This document shows positions 13,156 through 27,688 of a DNA stretch of 27,688 bases, piece by piece. Position numbers and translations under genes: made by a program. How positions within the stretch are numbered: the stretch's first letter is position 1; every line of letters starts with the position of its first letter. The DNA comes from a virus, in the IMG/VR virus record IMGVR_UViG_3300025127_000202, positions 1 through 27,688 of that record; one strand, given 5' to 3'. A model generated the notes under the pieces. That model saw only the letters and a list, made by a program, of their open reading frames with translations, was not told the DNA's origin and did no database searches.

Positions 13156-13665
13156 ATGGCAAATGTCAATCCGAAAGATGCTCAACTTGTAAATGAGCAT
13201 CTTGTTCAGTGTCTAAGAGACTCAGTAATGGTTCATAATCAAACTCAAATAGTACACTGGGGCTTGTTAGGATCAAAATTTTATCAAATACATCTTCTTA
13301 CAGGGGATATACAAACCGAAATGGGAGAAGGAATCGATAATGTTGCTGAACATATAAGATCTGTGAATGTAATGACACCATCTAGTGTTGGAGATTTGTT
13401 GTCATCAAGAATAAAAGATATCAATATTTCTGATCCATTTGATCAAGACAAGATTATTTTAGATTTAAGTATGGCTCATGACATGCTTGCTAGTTTTTTT
13501 GAGGAGTTAGCGAAGTATGCAGGAATGATAGGAGATGATCTCACTCAGGATTTAGCAGTAGAACGAGCTAGAGTACATAAAAAAAATCAATGGCATCTTA
13601 GAGCTACAATGACATATATGACTTCTAATAAAGAACGTACAGATGTCGAAGAGGGCAAAAGCTAA
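13156..13665 (+). CDS. Dps-like ferritin (DNA-binding/iron-detoxifying) protein
   Basis: The 169-residue protein aligns well with the Dps ferroxidase core. The segment QIVHWGLLGSKFYQIHLLTG corresponds to the family's F-H-W-x-x-x-G-x-x-F-x-x-x-H. H34, H46, D61 and E65 have the same spacing as the E. coli ligands H51, H63, D78 and E82 (12, 15 and 4 residues apart). The motif continues as DNVAEHIRSVNV. Dps dodecamers use hydrogen peroxide to oxidise iron and protect DNA. A phage copy would reduce oxidative damage in a photosynthetic host. Its C-terminal 23 nt overlap the next gene. Confidence 0.88.
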   Translation: MANVNPKDAQLVNEHLVQCLRDSVMVHNQTQIVHWGLLGSKFYQIHLLTGDIQTEMGEGIDNVAEHIRSVNVMTPSSVGDLLSSRIKDINISDPFDQDKIILDLSMAHDMLASFFEELAKYAGMIGDDLTQDLAVERARVHKKNQWHLRATMTYMTSNKERTDVEEGKS

Positions 13666-13930
13666 ACAACTTTCAAAAGATCGTTTGAAATGTAATAAAC
13701 CAAAGAGGACTCCTAGTCATAAAACTAAGTCACATGTTGTAAAAGCATGTAAAGACGGTAAAGAAAAGATAATTAGATTTGGTCAGCAAGGGGTGAAAGG
13801 GGCTGGTAAAAATCCTAAAACAGAAAAAGAAAAAGCAAGAAAACGTTCATATTATGCTAGACATGATGCTCAGGATAAAAACCCTGATAAATTTTCTGCT
13901 CGCTATTGGTCACATAAAGTTAAATGGTAA
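13643..13930 (+). CDS. Basic conserved phage protein
   Basis: The 95-residue product is strongly basic (for example MSKRAKAKQLSKDRLKCNKP) and contains the core QQGVKGAGKNPKTEKEKARK, followed by RSYYARHDAQDKNPDKFSAR. The 'G-V-K-G-A-G-K-N-P-x-T-x-x-x-x-A-R-K-R' core is a pattern I recall from marine phage proteins of unknown function. A nucleic acid-binding role is a guess based on charge. It overlaps the end of the Dps-like gene and its stop abuts the stop of the opposite oxygenase gene. Confidence 0.65.
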   Translation: MSKRAKAKQLSKDRLKCNKPKRTPSHKTKSHVVKACKDGKEKIIRFGQQGVKGAGKNPKTEKEKARKRSYYARHDAQDKNPDKFSARYWSHKVKW

Positions 13931-22563: not shown

Positions 22564-25500
22564 ATGTCACAGACTAAGGCTCAATTAATAGCTTCAGATG
22601 CTACTTTTACGATATCTTCCGACGCTTCATTTAATTCTGTAACTGTAGGTAAAGGTGCAAACTCTGTTGCTGGTAACACTGTTCTTGGAGAAAGTGCTTT
22701 AGATGCTTCTGTTTCTGGTGCAGATAATACAGCTATAGGTAAAAGTGTTCTAACAGCTTTAACATCTGGTACTGAGAACACAATGGTAGGTTCTTTAGCT
22801 GGTGATGCAGTAACAACAGGTAATAATAATGTAGGTGTTGGAAGGCAAGCTTTAGGCGGTGTAACTACTGGTGGTAATAATGTTGGGGTAGGTTGGAACG
22901 CTGGTGTAAATATTACAACGGCTACTACAAACGTAACTGTAGGTTTTAATAGTTTAGCTGATTGTGTAACTGGTTCAGCTAATACTGCTGTTGGTACAAA
23001 TGCCCTTGCAGATACTACATCAAGCGAAAATGCAGGTTTCGGTAATGAGAGTTTAAGACTTAATACCAGCGGTCAATATAATGCAGCTTTTGGTGCTAAT
23101 ACACTCAAAGCTAACACTACAGCATCTAACAACACTGCTGTTGGATACAACTCTTTAGCAGCAAACACAACTGGAGCTACTAACGTAGCTGTAGGAGGTA
23201 ATTCTTTAGATGCTAATACTACAGCAAACAACAACACTGCTGTTGGCTTTAACTCTTTAGGAGCAAACACAACTGGAACTAATAATGTAGCAGTAGGTGT
23301 ATCTTGTGCACTTTTAAATACTACAGGAAGTGGTAATACTGCAATCGGATCAAACGCTTTGGACGCAAATACTACAGGTGAAAACAACGTAGCTGTGGGT
23401 AGAGGAGCTTTAGGTGGAAACACAACAGCATCATTTAATACGGCTGTTGGTTTTGATGCCGGACTAAATATTACATCAGGATCAAGTAATACTGTAGTAG
23501 GTAAATCAGCATTAGAAGATTGCACTACTGGAACTTTTAATACTGCTATAGGTGATAACGCACTAGCAGATGTAACTACAACTTCAAGTTCTACTGCTGT
23601 CGGTCATGCTGCTCTAAATAAGAATACTGCAGCTGAAAACACTGCTGTTGGAAGAAACAGTCTTAAAGAAAATACATCAGCAAGCAAAAACACTGCTATA
23701 GGTTATGACGCATTACAAGCGAACGTAACCGGTCAAAGTAATGTAGCTTGTGGACATGATGCAATGAGATTATATACAGGTGCTAATAGTGTTGCTGTTG
23801 GCCAGGGGAGTTTATCATCCTCTGGAAGTGGTACACAAAATGGTGGTAGTAATGTAGCTGTTGGTATAAGTTCTTTAAGATTAAATCAAGGTGGACAGCA
23901 AAACGTAGCTGTTGGTGATACTGCAATGCAAAATAATACATCAGGTAACGTAAACGTAGCTGTAGGACAAAGTTGTTTAGGAGCTAATACAACTGGAATA
24001 CAAAACGTAGCTGTAGGAGCCTTCACTTTAGATGCAGCAACAGCAGATAACAACAACGTAGCTATTGGTTACGGTGCTATGACTAACAATAATGGTGGAG
24101 AAAATTGTACAGCTATTGGTTCATTTGCTTTAGAAGAGAATACAACAGCAAACAACAATACTGGAGTTGGCCATAAAGCTTTAGAAAGTAATACAACTGG
24201 AACTTCACTTACAGGCGTAGGTGCTTTTAGTTTAGATGCTAACACCACTGGTAATTCTAATACTGCTTTAGGTATAAATTCTTTAGGTGCTAATACTACA
24301 GGATCTAATAATGTTGCGTTGGGAAATAGTGCGTTATTAGCAAATACTACTGCTAGTGGCAATACAGGAATTGGTCACGCTGCTTTAACTTCTAACACAA
24401 CTGGAACAGGTAATACAGCCGTAGGTTCTGAAGCCTTAGATGCAAACACTACAGGAGGAGAGAATACTGCTGTTGGATTGACTAGTTTAAGTAGTAATAC
24501 TACAGGAGATGGAAATACTGCTGTTGGTAGAACTTGTATGTTTTCTAATACTACAGGAGACCAAAATACTGCTATCGGTAGACAAGCATTAGGGGCAAAC
24601 ACAACTGCAGATAACAATACTGCTGTTGGTTACCATGCTATGTTAACAAACGAAACTGGAGCCAATAATACATCAGTTGGACACGCTGCTTTAAATGCAA
24701 ATACTACAGGTTCAAATAATACTGCATTAGGTAGAGCTGCTTTGGGAGATAATACCACAGCTGCTAACAATACAGCCGTAGGCTATTTTGCTTTACTATC
24801 AAACACAACTGGTACTGAAAACACAGCAATGGGTTCTCAGTCTTTAGATGCTTGCACAACGGCTAATCAAAATACTGCTGTTGGTTATGAATCATTATCT
24901 AATTGCACAACAGGTATTAGAAACACTGGTATTGGTAGGAAAGCATTGAGAGATGTTACTACTTCTAATCAAAATACGGCAGTAGGAAGTTCTTGCTTAC
25001 TTAACAATACAGGTACTAATAACGTTGGTGTTGGAAACGACGCACTGGTACAAAACACAACTGGAGGTAATAACGTAGCTATAGGTTCTTTATCTTTAGA
25101 TGCTAATACTACTGCTGGTGGTAATACTGCAGTTGGTTATCAAACATTATCAGAAGTTCAAACTAATACTGGTCTTACTGCTGTTGGTTACAGAGCTTTA
25201 ACAGTTAGTAATGGTGGAAATAATAATACAGCAGTTGGATATAATGCTGGAGTTGCTTGTACAACTGGTGACTCAAATGTAATGATGGGAGTTAACAGTC
25301 TTCTTTCTTTAACAACTGGAGATAGAAATACTGCCATTGGACATCAAGCTCTATCAGGTCTTACAACTACTGATAATAATACCGCATTAGGATATCAAGC
25401 TGGTGTTAACTATACCAGTGGGGGACAAAGTGTTTTTATAGGAAGAAATTCTGGTGGTACTTCTGGTAGTGGTGTTACAGCTATTGGCTTTTATGCTTGC

Positions 25501-26463
25501 GAGAATACTACAGCAGATAATACTCTAGGTATTGGGTATCAAGCACTCAATGCAAATACAAGTGGAGGAGACAATTTAGCTGTTGGTAATAATGCCCTAG
25601 ATGCCAATACAACTGGAGCTAACAACACTGGTTTGGGTAGACATGCTTTAGGAGAAAACACAACAGCTAGTAACAATACTGCGGTTGGGTCTCTTGCTTT
25701 AGATGCTTGCACAACTGGTGAAAGTAATACAGCTATTGGTTATGCAGCTTTAACAGACTTATCAGATCAAGGACATTGTACTGCTGTAGGATCACTTGCA
25801 GGTGAAAACGCTGTTGGAGATGAAAATACGTTTGTCGGTGGAAGAGCAGGTAAAGGCACTGGCAGCGGTTGTAATGGCACTGATAATGTTGCAATAGGGT
25901 ATAAGGCTTTAACAGCATTTTCCTCTGGAGGAAATAATGTTTGCATTGGCCATGAAGCTGGTAATGGAATTTCAACAGGCAGTGGAAATACATTTGTTGG
26001 CCATGAAGCTGGTTCAAACTCAGTAACAACAGGTGGTAATAATACTTTTTTAGGTAATGGTGCTGGTGCTGCTCAAGGGGGTGCATTGGGAGATAATATA
26101 TTTCTTGGAAATAGTAGTGTTCAAACATTAAGATGCCAACAAACTTCTATTACTGGTCTTTCTGATGAAAGAGATAAAACAAATATTGTTGATTTAACAG
26201 ATGGTTTGTCTTTAGTAAATTTATTAAAACCAAGAAAATTTACTTGGGCTATGCGTACACCAAGTTCAAATGATGGTAAAACAGAAATAGGTTTTGTTGC
26301 ACAAGAATTAGATACTGCTTTTGGTGACAAGAATGAATATGTTGGAATTGTTGATAAAACAGATACTAATAGATTAGAAGCTGCACCAGCAAAATTAATT
26401 CCAATATTAGTTAAAGCAATACAAGAGTTATCCGCAGAAGTAAATGCTTTAAAGGCTGCATAA
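22564..26463 (+). CDS. Giant fibre: YadA-like head repeats with S74 chaperone
   Basis: The 1299-residue protein has a short N-terminal leader (MSQTKAQLIASDATFTISSD), then about 1150 residues of repeats such as NTAVGYNSLAANTTGATNVA. The core [N-x-x-V/I-G-x-x-A/S-L-x-x-x-T-T] repeats with spacing of about 22-24 residues, sometimes shorter, as in trimeric autotransporter (YadA) heads. The C-terminal region is a Peptidase_S74 domain: S1200 and K1205 in SDERDKTNIVDLT match the Ser-Lys dyad, and GFVAQELDTAFG and a C-terminal coiled coil (AIQELSAEVNALKAA) follow. It would form a long left-handed beta-solenoid-like trimer that self-cleaves on folding. A host-recognition or side-fibre role is likely. 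Confidence 0.92.
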   Translation: MSQTKAQLIASDATFTISSDASFNSVTVGKGANSVAGNTVLGESALDASVSGADNTAIGKSVLTALTSGTENTMVGSLAGDAVTTGNNNVGVGRQALGGVTTGGNNVGVGWNAGVNITTATTNVTVGFNSLADCVTGSANTAVGTNALADTTSSENAGFGNESLRLNTSGQYNAAFGANTLKANTTASNNTAVGYNSLAANTTGATNVAVGGNSLDANTTANNNTAVGFNSLGANTTGTNNVAVGVSCALLNTTGSGNTAIGSNALDANTTGENNVAVGRGALGGNTTASFNTAVGFDAGLNITSGSSNTVVGKSALEDCTTGTFNTAIGDNALADVTTTSSSTAVGHAALNKNTAAENTAVGRNSLKENTSASKNTAIGYDALQANVTGQSNVACGHDAMRLYTGANSVAVGQGSLSSSGSGTQNGGSNVAVGISSLRLNQGGQQNVAVGDTAMQNNTSGNVNVAVGQSCLGANTTGIQNVAVGAFTLDAATADNNNVAIGYGAMTNNNGGENCTAIGSFALEENTTANNNTGVGHKALESNTTGTSLTGVGAFSLDANTTGNSNTALGINSLGANTTGSNNVALGNSALLANTTASGNTGIGHAALTSNTTGTGNTAVGSEALDANTTGGENTAVGLTSLSSNTTGDGNTAVGRTCMFSNTTGDQNTAIGRQALGANTTADNNTAVGYHAMLTNETGANNTSVGHAALNANTTGSNNTALGRAALGDNTTAANNTAVGYFALLSNTTGTENTAMGSQSLDACTTANQNTAVGYESLSNCTTGIRNTGIGRKALRDVTTSNQNTAVGSSCLLNNTGTNNVGVGNDALVQNTTGGNNVAIGSLSLDANTTAGGNTAVGYQTLSEVQTNTGLTAVGYRALTVSNGGNNNTAVGYNAGVACTTGDSNVMMGVNSLLSLTTGDRNTAIGHQALSGLTTTDNNTALGYQAGVNYTSGGQSVFIGRNSGGTSGSGVTAIGFYACENTTADNTLGIGYQALNANTSGGDNLAVGNNALDANTTGANNTGLGRHALGENTTASNNTAVGSLALDACTTGESNTAIGYAALTDLSDQGHCTAVGSLAGENAVGDENTFVGGRAGKGTGSGCNGTDNVAIGYKALTAFSSGGNNVCIGHEAGNGISTGSGNTFVGHEAGSNSVTTGGNNTFLGNGAGAAQGGALGDNIFLGNSSVQTLRCQQTSITGLSDERDKTNIVDLTDGLSLVNLLKPRKFTWAMRTPSSNDGKTEIGFVAQELDTAFGDKNEYVGIVDKTDTNRLEAAPAKLIPILVKAIQELSAEVNALKAA
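22640..26090 (+). repeat. In-frame coding repeats of YadA-like head
   Basis: Dozens of degenerate repeats of roughly 66-72 nt, for example variants of AATACTGCTGTTGG and AACACAACTGGA, encode the NTAVG/ANTTG repeats. They are protein-level tandem repeats with varied codons rather than a CRISPR or satellite. Recombination between repeats could change fibre length. Confidence 0.85.
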
Positions 26464-26799: not shown

Positions 26800-27030
26800 A
26801 TGCAGATAGTAAATTTTTTTCTATCTAAACCATCCGTGTACACACTTCCAGGAACATGGGAAAAACAACCTTTAATAAAACATGGAGATTATGGTGGATT
26901 GCCACCAGAGGGTCAATTAGTTGTTATCATCCTTATATTGTTGCTAACAGTGACCGGATATGGACTGTATGTAGCATTTGGACCACCTAATAAAAACTTA
27001 ACTGATCCTTGGGATGAGCACGACGATTAA
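26800..27030 (+). CDS. psbN: PsbN-like photosystem II assembly protein with N-terminal extension
   Basis: The 76-residue product ends in a single membrane helix and a tail, VVIILILLLTVTGYGLYVAF, then GPPNKNLTDPWDEHDD. This matches PsbN: T-G-Y-x-L-Y-x-A-F-G-x-P-S-x-x-L-x-D-P-F-E-E-H-x-D. PsbN is a 43-residue membrane protein needed for assembly and repair of photosystem II. Here about 33 extra residues precede that core. An in-frame TTG at 26899 would give exactly 43 residues, so the true start is uncertain. The extension contains no obvious signal peptide. The gene follows the fibre companion by 47 nt. Confidence 0.7.
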   Translation: MQIVNFFLSKPSVYTLPGTWEKQPLIKHGDYGGLPPEGQLVVIILILLLTVTGYGLYVAFGPPNKNLTDPWDEHDD

Positions 27031-27077: not shown

Positions 27078-27097
27078 TTGAAATTTTTTCAATTTTT
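27078..27097. terminator. Possible weak terminator between convergent genes
   Basis: TTGAAA (27078-27083) and TTTCAA (27087-27092) form a 6-bp AT hairpin followed by TTTTT. It lies in the 58-nt gap between the PsbN-like gene and the opposite-strand Cys-rich gene. A second palindrome, AAATTTTAAAATTT (27033-27046), lies nearby. The stem is AT-only, so termination is uncertain. Confidence 0.3.
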
Positions 27098-27301
27098 ATT
27101 TAATTTTTTATAATATTCTCTAGCATTTTCAGTTTGTTTTATTTTATTTTTGCAGTGTTCGCAATCACAAGTGCAATGTGGGCACTCACATTTCTTTTTT
27201 AACGCAGCCCTTGCCTCTTGAAAAAAAGGTAAGTTCTTCAATTTATAAGTCTGCAATTTTTTAGTGCAAATATTAATTAAATTATACTTCCAGAAAACCA
27301 T
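27089..27301 (-). CDS. Small Cys-rich, probable metal-binding protein
   Basis: The 70-residue protein carries the cluster K-K-C-E-C-P-H-C-T-C-D-C-E-H-C-K, seven Cys/His-type positions in a short stretch, flanked by helices (FFQEARAALKKK, QTENAREYYKKLNK). Zinc or iron binding is likely. The family is not identified. Its start overlaps the end of the 33-residue membrane ORF, so translation is coupled. It is the last gene of a five-gene - strand chain. Confidence 0.6.
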   Translation of the reverse strand: MVFWKYNLINICTKKLQTYKLKNLPFFQEARAALKKKCECPHCTCDCEHCKNKIKQTENAREYYKKLNKN

Positions 27302-27383
27302 ATAACCCTGCCATTGTCCCTACAATGACAAAGAATCCAAACTCTATAAGTGGATAGTAAGGGCTATAGAAAATTTTTTTCAT
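27282..27383 (-). CDS. 33-residue single-helix membrane protein
   Basis: The frame encodes MKKIFYSPYYPLIEFGFFVI, then VGTMAGLYGFLEV. One hydrophobic helix spans about residues 12-30. It starts in an ATGA overlap with the 24-residue ORF and overlaps the start of the Cys-rich ORF by 20 nt. It resembles photosystem-type microproteins in size and shape, but no family is assigned. Confidence 0.5.
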   Translation of the reverse strand: MKKIFYSPYYPLIEFGFFVIVGTMAGLYGFLEV

Positions 27384-27454
27384 GCATAAATAAAAGCACT
27401 AAGATCAGTTGCTAAATATGCAGCAATAATTAGTGTAAATAATAAATGGTTCAT
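27380..27454 (-). CDS. 24-residue membrane microprotein
   Basis: The frame encodes MNHLLFTLIIAAYLATDLSA plus FIYA, a single hydrophobic helix. Its ATG shares one base with the stop of the upstream 55-residue ORF (TAATG) and its TGA overlaps the next ATG (ATGA). The precise coupling on both ends argues that it is translated, though its length is very small and no family is known. Confidence 0.4.
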   Translation of the reverse strand: MNHLLFTLIIAAYLATDLSAFIYA

Positions 27455-27621
27455 TAGGTTCCTTGATAAACAGGTGTCATAACACCACCTCCTTCATCAT
27501 CATCGTCATCATCATTAGTCCTTAAAACTAATTCAAATAAAACAACAAATCCTATGGGATAGAAACACCATAGGATTGCTTGAAAGGGTGATATTTCGTT
27601 TATTTGTGATAACTCATGCAT
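27454..27621 (-). CDS. 55-residue single-helix membrane protein with Asp-rich run
   Basis: The frame encodes MHELSQINEISPFQAILWCF, then YPIGFVVLFELVLRTN, a run of six Asp, and EGGGVMTPVYQGT. One membrane helix (about 13-33) precedes an acidic linker. I recall similar cyanophage proteins with a poly-Asp segment after the helix, without firm family assignment. Its ATG overlaps the stop of the upstream Hli-like fragment (TAATG), and its stop overlaps the 24-residue ORF start. Confidence 0.55.
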   Translation of the reverse strand: MHELSQINEISPFQAILWCFYPIGFVVLFELVLRTNDDDDDDEGGGVMTPVYQGT

Positions 27622-27688
27622 TAAAAAATGCCGAAGAACATATGTCCTGTGAGTAAATCAGATGTTGCTGCTGCAACCAGCCCAAGCA
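27621..27688 (-). CDS. C-terminal fragment, probable high-light-inducible (Hli) protein
   Basis: The frame enters from the right edge and ends LGLVAAATSDLLTGHMFFGI plus F before TAA. The pattern A/L-G-L-V-A-A-x-x-S-D-L-L-T-G is like the C-terminal part of one-helix Hli proteins, which bind chlorophyll and protect photosystem II. The diagnostic N-terminal E-x-x-N-G-R motif lies outside the window, so this is a probable call only. It is the first visible gene of the - strand chain. Confidence 0.4.
   Translation of the reverse strand, partial: LGLVAAATSDLLTGHMFFGIF

Follow-up and report, generated by a model that had tools for sequence, protein, structure and literature searches.

Cyanophages carry psbA and hli genes and sustain host photosynthesis with them, and we know of no partners of the cyanophage Hli proteins. 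Could such partners be encoded in the chain of minus-strand micro-genes at the right end of a 27.7 kb viral contig from IMG/VR (hereafter the window, meaning the whole 27,688-nt stretch of DNA that was analyzed)? The original prediction, made from the DNA letters, described five same-direction frames beginning with a probable hli terminus and proposed that they supply small subunits to a photosynthetic membrane during infection. All five frames are present in the DNA as claimed, with the junctions TAATG, TAATG, ATGA and a 20-nt overlap in that order, and the 55-, 24- and 33-aa proteins each contain a hydrophobic stretch sufficient for one membrane helix. From the sequence comparisons that follow, these small proteins are probably unrecognized helpers of Hli proteins in the photosynthetic membrane. 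The features of the locus are:

27621..27688 (translated part 27621-27686), minus strand: C-terminus of an hli gene, truncated by the contig end; PHROG 178, E=4.9e-6
27454..27621, minus strand: gene for a 55-aa single-helix protein, T4-GC437 / PHROG 7843; TAATG overlap with hli
27459..27464, minus strand: AAGGAA Shine-Dalgarno (SD) site of the 24-aa gene, within the Gln-Gly-Thr codons of the 55-aa gene
27380..27454, minus strand: gene for a 24-aa hydrophobic micro-protein; TAATG overlap with the 55-aa gene
27282..27383, minus strand: gene for a 33-aa micro-protein with helix EFxFFxxxGxxAGxxG; ATGA overlap with the 24-aa gene
27089..27301, minus strand: gene for a 70-aa Cys-rich soluble protein, CxCPHCxCxCxHC; 20-nt overlap with the 33-aa gene
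26800..27030, plus strand: psbN-type gene of the T4-GC163 family; Pfam PF02468, E=1.2e-16; convergent with the cassette

Composition and conservation of the cassette

The Hli fragment in the window, LGLVAAATSDLLTGHMFFGIF, matches the high light inducible family PHROG 178 over 21 aa. The ExxNGR chlorophyll-binding helix motif lies outside the window, but extension to the right, set beforehand as a test, located it in near-identical longer contigs: those running past the window edge (L010, L044, L064 and L045) encode a full Hli of 43 aa with AETLNGR, which reads ...IAETLNGRLAMLGLVAAATSDLLTGHMFFGIF, and relatives with an identical overlapping C-terminus carry AETLNGRLAM. By these matches the fragment is a true Hli. 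Two further hli genes, of 35 aa and 63-65 aa, precede the 43-aa gene in the near-identical contigs, making three hli in tandem. None of the 55-, 24- and 33-aa proteins contains the ExxNGR motif or has significant profile similarity to Hli. The earlier statement that nothing in the chain could be identified beyond the Hli fragment needs revision: both the 55- and the 33-aa protein have host chromosomal relatives, and the 55-aa protein, whose tail is GGGVMTPVYQGT, is a member of T4-GC437 / PHROG 7843 (E=1e-26 over residues 1-54), with the W-C-x-Y-P helix, Asp6 and GGxMxPxY as hallmarks. No Pfam or NCBIfam model exists for the 55- or the 33-aa family.

When viral contigs were scanned twice with the 55-aa protein as query, about 100 loci emerged, and the gene could be delimited in 94. 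The three small genes are found again in ~90 related phage loci, for the most part with order and overlaps unchanged, which bears out the gene order expected of related phages for hli and the three small genes. The 55-aa gene alone served to select the loci, which makes the two genes downstream independent observations. An ORF of 24-27 aa follows the 55-aa gene in 87 of the 94 loci; 82 of 89 candidate ORFs are exactly 24 aa long, and 58 of the 89 overlap the 55-aa gene by 1 nt at a TAATG junction. Further downstream, 83 of the 94 loci have an ORF of 30-39 aa with EFx(F/V)FxxxGxxxGxxG, reached through an ATGA junction in 40. Upstream, the immediate neighbor of the 55-aa gene is hli in roughly 60 of the 94, and in many of the remaining loci a ~30-aa PVPxKVVPYIF protein stands between the two or replaces hli. 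This micro-protein, PVP(F/L)KVVPYIF..., directly precedes the 55-aa gene in L016, L017, L022, L028, L055, L058 and other loci, often with an ATGA junction, and lies further downstream in L002 and L009; five Prochlorococcus genomes encode significant relatives of it. In the four named cyanophages checked (P-HM1, MED4-213, P-SSM7 and S-SSM4) the 24-aa gene is present yet unannotated, and the 33-aa gene is annotated in P-HM1 alone (PHM1_204, T4-GC554).

Purifying selection, which the original prediction expected of the small frames, was found for all three genes. For moderately divergent pairs taken together, dN/dS is 0.17 for the 55-aa, 0.27 for the 24-aa and 0.18 for the 33-aa gene, values that serve as estimates and not as tests, as the pairs are not independent by descent. 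Among the nearest relatives of the window, pN/pS is 0.10, 0.07 and 0.04, respectively, whereas values of 0.7-4.6 result when this DNA is translated in the two wrong frames. On these sequence comparisons, it is near certain that the three genes are coding.

The Cys-rich gene, which had been counted as the fifth link of the chain, was rejected as a member of the cassette and is a lineage-specific neighbor. It occurs in 11 of 12 near-identical contigs (window included) under weaker constraint (pN/pS 0.40), its ATG at 27301 and the 20-nt overlap are unconserved in relatives, and no relative of the protein is encoded in any phage record searched. In L064 the frame is closed upstream and opens only beyond the end of the 33-aa gene; a TTG near 27256 (giving 55 aa) is therefore the likelier start, and the 20-nt overlap is a coincidence of the window copy and its closest kin.

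The psbN-type protein belongs to PsbN, with PF02468 at residues 40-76 and the conserved C-terminus DPW(D)EHDD, and scores 65 bits against the NCBIfam PsbN model, under its 70-bit cut-off. Its gene is convergent with the cassette and within about 1 kb of it in all 12 near relatives (window included) and in 0 of the 82 other loci. Those 82 are T4-like in appearance, and 19 of them have psbA on the cassette's strand, 0.9-2.2 kb downstream; no psbA was seen beside the cassette in the window and its 11 nearest relatives. The primase of the window's relatives, found in 8 of 11 records, has Synechococcus phage S-EIV1 as its best named match (34% over 99%), and this match, drawn from fragments of the lineage only, indicates that the window's lineage is probably not T4-like. 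The primase/helicase genes at L010 128-1945 and L255 321-2894 are closest to those of freshwater cyanophage S-EIV1, which suggests an uncultured marine relative of that lineage. Elsewhere in the window, all on the plus strand, are a Dps-like gene (13156-13662, PHROG 3636) whose sole named-phage match is S-SRM01, where it is annotated as a DNA starvation protection protein; a short stretch (13690-13930) whose DNA is about 70% similar to that of Puniceispirillum and Roseobacter phages of the HMO-2011 type; and a gene for a 1299-aa repetitive protein (22564-26463) with NTA(V/I)G-type repeats and a C-terminus that resembles an intramolecular chaperone, encoded at a position where the gene differs strongly among relatives.

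Start signals and an embedded Shine-Dalgarno site

An SD-like core precedes the 24-aa gene in 83 of 87 loci, including 57 of 57 with the TAATG overlap, against a background of 11%; for the 55-aa gene the count is only 5 of 94. The SD of the 24-aa gene is written in the final codons of the 55-aa gene, CAA-GGA-(G/A)CN. There the glycine codon is GGA in 66 of 67 distinct genes, versus 109 of 332 (33%) at their other glycines, counts that are uncorrected for kinship. Three of the few loci that lack an adjacent 24-mer have GGT or GGG at that glycine, and GGT, GGC or GGG is the codon in the seven host copies examined whose protein has QGA and one further residue at its end. Judged by this codon pattern, the last codons of the 55-aa gene double as the SD site of the 24-aa gene, and a site constrained inside the preceding gene is independent evidence for translation of the 24-codon gene. 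The 33-aa gene has an SD in none of 40 loci when it overlaps the 24-aa gene by ATGA versus 21 of 36 when the two do not overlap, which suggests reinitiation. The modes of initiation would then alternate along the chain: reinitiation after hli for the 55-aa gene, an SD site of its own for the 24-aa gene, and reinitiation again for the 33-aa gene once the 24-aa gene has been translated. Such overlaps may couple translation, so that the products would be made together and in set ratios.

A translational role could, in principle, be the only role of the 24-aa frame, ribosomes that finish it reinitiating on the 33-aa gene while the peptide itself is inert. The dependence of the 33-aa start signal on the ATGA overlap would be expected of such a device, as would the finding that Met1 and Phe6 alone are invariant across the 24-mer family and that host cassettes manage without a 24-mer. 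An inert product is nonetheless hard to reconcile with the constraint on its codons (0.27 overall, 0.07 in near relatives), with a length that most loci keep at 24 aa and with strong hydrophobicity that is retained; moreover, the 24-mer persists where the 33-mer starts independently downstream. We therefore consider a purely translational function unlikely.

Relatives in Prochlorococcus chromosomes

Profile searches place both other families in the host. The 55-aa family occurs in Prochlorococcus chromosomes with E down to 1.8e-22. For the 33-aa family, 45 of the 121 host-family genomes sampled gave matches, with E down to 1e-14, all of them confined to genomes of 1.1-2.0 Mb, the range typical of Prochlorococcus. 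A scan of bacterial genome contigs with exact peptide patterns of the 55-aa family found nothing, a blank that reflects the limit of such patterns because the profile searches gave clear relatives. GC437 matches at E 1e-3 to 1e-6 in larger host-family genomes mainly cover the acidic tail and were left uncounted.

Many host genomes carry both genes together on one strand, for example as hli, (hli), a 57-aa gene, a 60-aa gene, the 33-mer and GC437. In host genome G025 the order hli-hli-hli-GC437-33-mer-hli is that of the phages, again with a 1-nt overlap between hli and GC437, and G123 is alike but with two hli in front. An hli motif is present in 15 of 30 host GC437 loci versus 2 of 53 Prochlorococcus psbA control loci, and near 1 of 12 of the best-scoring host copies of the 33-mer, which are mostly solitary. 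GC437 of phage S-SSM4 and of host G025 are 75% identical over 55 aa. Host and phage copies interleave in a tree of 61 GC437 sequences with few columns, in which well-supported branches force at least two label changes and so at least two transfers between host and phage, the direction being unknown. From these profile matches and gene orders, the 55- and 33-aa families also belong to the Prochlorococcus chromosome, where they lie beside hli in many strains and in phage order in two, which is new. The host cassettes lack the 24-mer and often place the 33-mer before GC437, so strict coupling is not universal.

Several host loci show further features. The hli clusters L213, L214, L216, L229, L231, L233 and L234 contain additional conserved micro-genes (about 21-25, 57 and 60 aa), situated between hli and the 33-mer. 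A T4-GC272 protein beside hli in P-SSM7 (L005 2915-3130) resembles a 72-aa host protein, FYDFPSSPILI...KYFNSPLNR, encoded at L210 7643-7861 about 1.7 kb from host GC437. L164 is a record titled Euryarchaeota MAG (PAZU01000034.1) with a Prochlorococcus-like psbA, and is probably mis-binned.

For the 24-mer, a profile search of 61 host genomes gave weak matches (best E 0.019) and no convincing host relative. The four weakly matching loci inspected all lie within hli clusters, with the matches in or beside hli coding helices. Aligned against Hli with hhalign, the 24-mer has a P of 2e-4 (probability 46%), compared with 0.027 for the 33-mer and 0.62 for the 55-mer, and a shuffle test of the resemblance was mixed, some Hli helices beating 99% of shuffles and others not. 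The weak resemblance of the 24-mer to an Hli helix may be taken as a lead.

Proposed role and comparison with known systems

Small one-helix phage proteins often serve lysis, superinfection exclusion or host take-over, and the cassette might encode membrane effectors of this kind that stand beside hli by chance. Besides the commonness of such roles, it would suit this explanation that no photosystem family was matched: searches of the 55-, 24- and 33-aa proteins against Pfam, NCBIfam and PDB, including known photosystem, cytochrome b6f and NDH subunits, gave nothing above noise, and the PDB profile searches returned insignificant matches only, among them PsaJ (E=1.2). Proteins directed against the host would, however, hardly be expected to have relatives retained in Prochlorococcus chromosomes, to be hli-linked in half of the host GC437 loci, or to lie by psbA in T4-like relatives and by psbN in the window, and we regard this explanation as improbable. 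An origin of the small frames by chance, as ORFs of AT-rich DNA travelling with hli, can be practically discounted: despite their small size and the fact that named phages mostly leave them unannotated, selection, length, order, start signals and codon choice all argue otherwise, and a pS of about 0.3 excludes alignments of one recent clone.

The explanation that we favor, with reasonable though far from complete confidence, is that the cassette is a phage copy of a host-type hli micro-operon whose small products act as Hli partners. It comprises tandem hli genes followed by three small genes, whose products are an acidic-tailed 55-aa one-helix protein, a hydrophobic peptide of 24 aa and a protein of 33 aa whose helix is of the small-residue (GxxxG-like) type. 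The photosynthetic-membrane set proposed at the outset gains here a linkage to hli in phages and Prochlorococcus, to psbA in T4-like relatives and to psbN in the window, and this linkage points to the thylakoid; by gene neighborhood the small proteins are candidates for the Hli-associated thylakoid class. Hli proteins act with chlorophyll synthase and Ycf39 in a ChlG-HliC/D-Ycf39 complex (PMC12142464), the small protein Psb34 modulates Hli binding to photosystem II intermediates (PMC9458560), and infection in the light induces host hli genes (PMC5082946). Together with the thylakoid linkage, the ChlG/Ycf39 and Psb34 precedents favor Hli partners. The small proteins would become part of the thylakoid membrane, where their partners would be either Hli proteins or Hli-protected photosystem assembly intermediates, and may thereby modulate Hli binding or chlorophyll handling while the phage sustains photosynthesis. 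Their most likely role would thus be that of single-helix Hli partners in photosystem assembly or protection during infection.

A bolder and doubtful extension is that Prochlorococcus and its phages share an undescribed group of one-helix, obligate Hli partners, exchanged with unrelated phages as a coupled cassette, in which the 24-mer would be a phage-specific "mini-Hli" without chlorophyll ligands. The cassette supplies specific, very small candidates for Hli partners that annotation has passed over in virus and host alike, and the question becomes testable through existing Prochlorococcus genes and existing infection transcriptomes and proteomes. No paper describing this small-protein set was found in the cyanophage and Prochlorococcus literature covered, a coverage that leaves out subscription journals.

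Among known systems, the closest are the hli clusters of T4-like cyanophages and Prochlorococcus (hli03, T4-GC267/270/271/436; Sullivan et al. 2010, PMC3037559), which are likewise tandem and overlap end to start. The cyanophage clusters lie near psbA, and the window cassette has the same Hli type but psbN in the place of psbA. In that study the trailing micro-genes are given as hypotheticals only (T4-GC437, T4-GC554) and the 24-mer is absent; new for T4-GC437 / PHROG 7843 are its hli-linked relatives in Prochlorococcus and final codons that contain the SD of the following gene. psbN itself was already known in cyanophages, T4-GC163 being a core gene of Prochlorococcus T4-phages (PMC3037559); the window protein has the same domain and here adjoins an hli cassette in a phage that is not T4-like in appearance. 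Psb34 (Ssl1498) and ChlG-HliC/HliD-Ycf39 of Synechocystis act with Hlips or compete with them in photosystem II assembly (PMC9458560, PMC12142464). No sequence relationship to these was found for the phage proteins, which may resemble them in working mode only.
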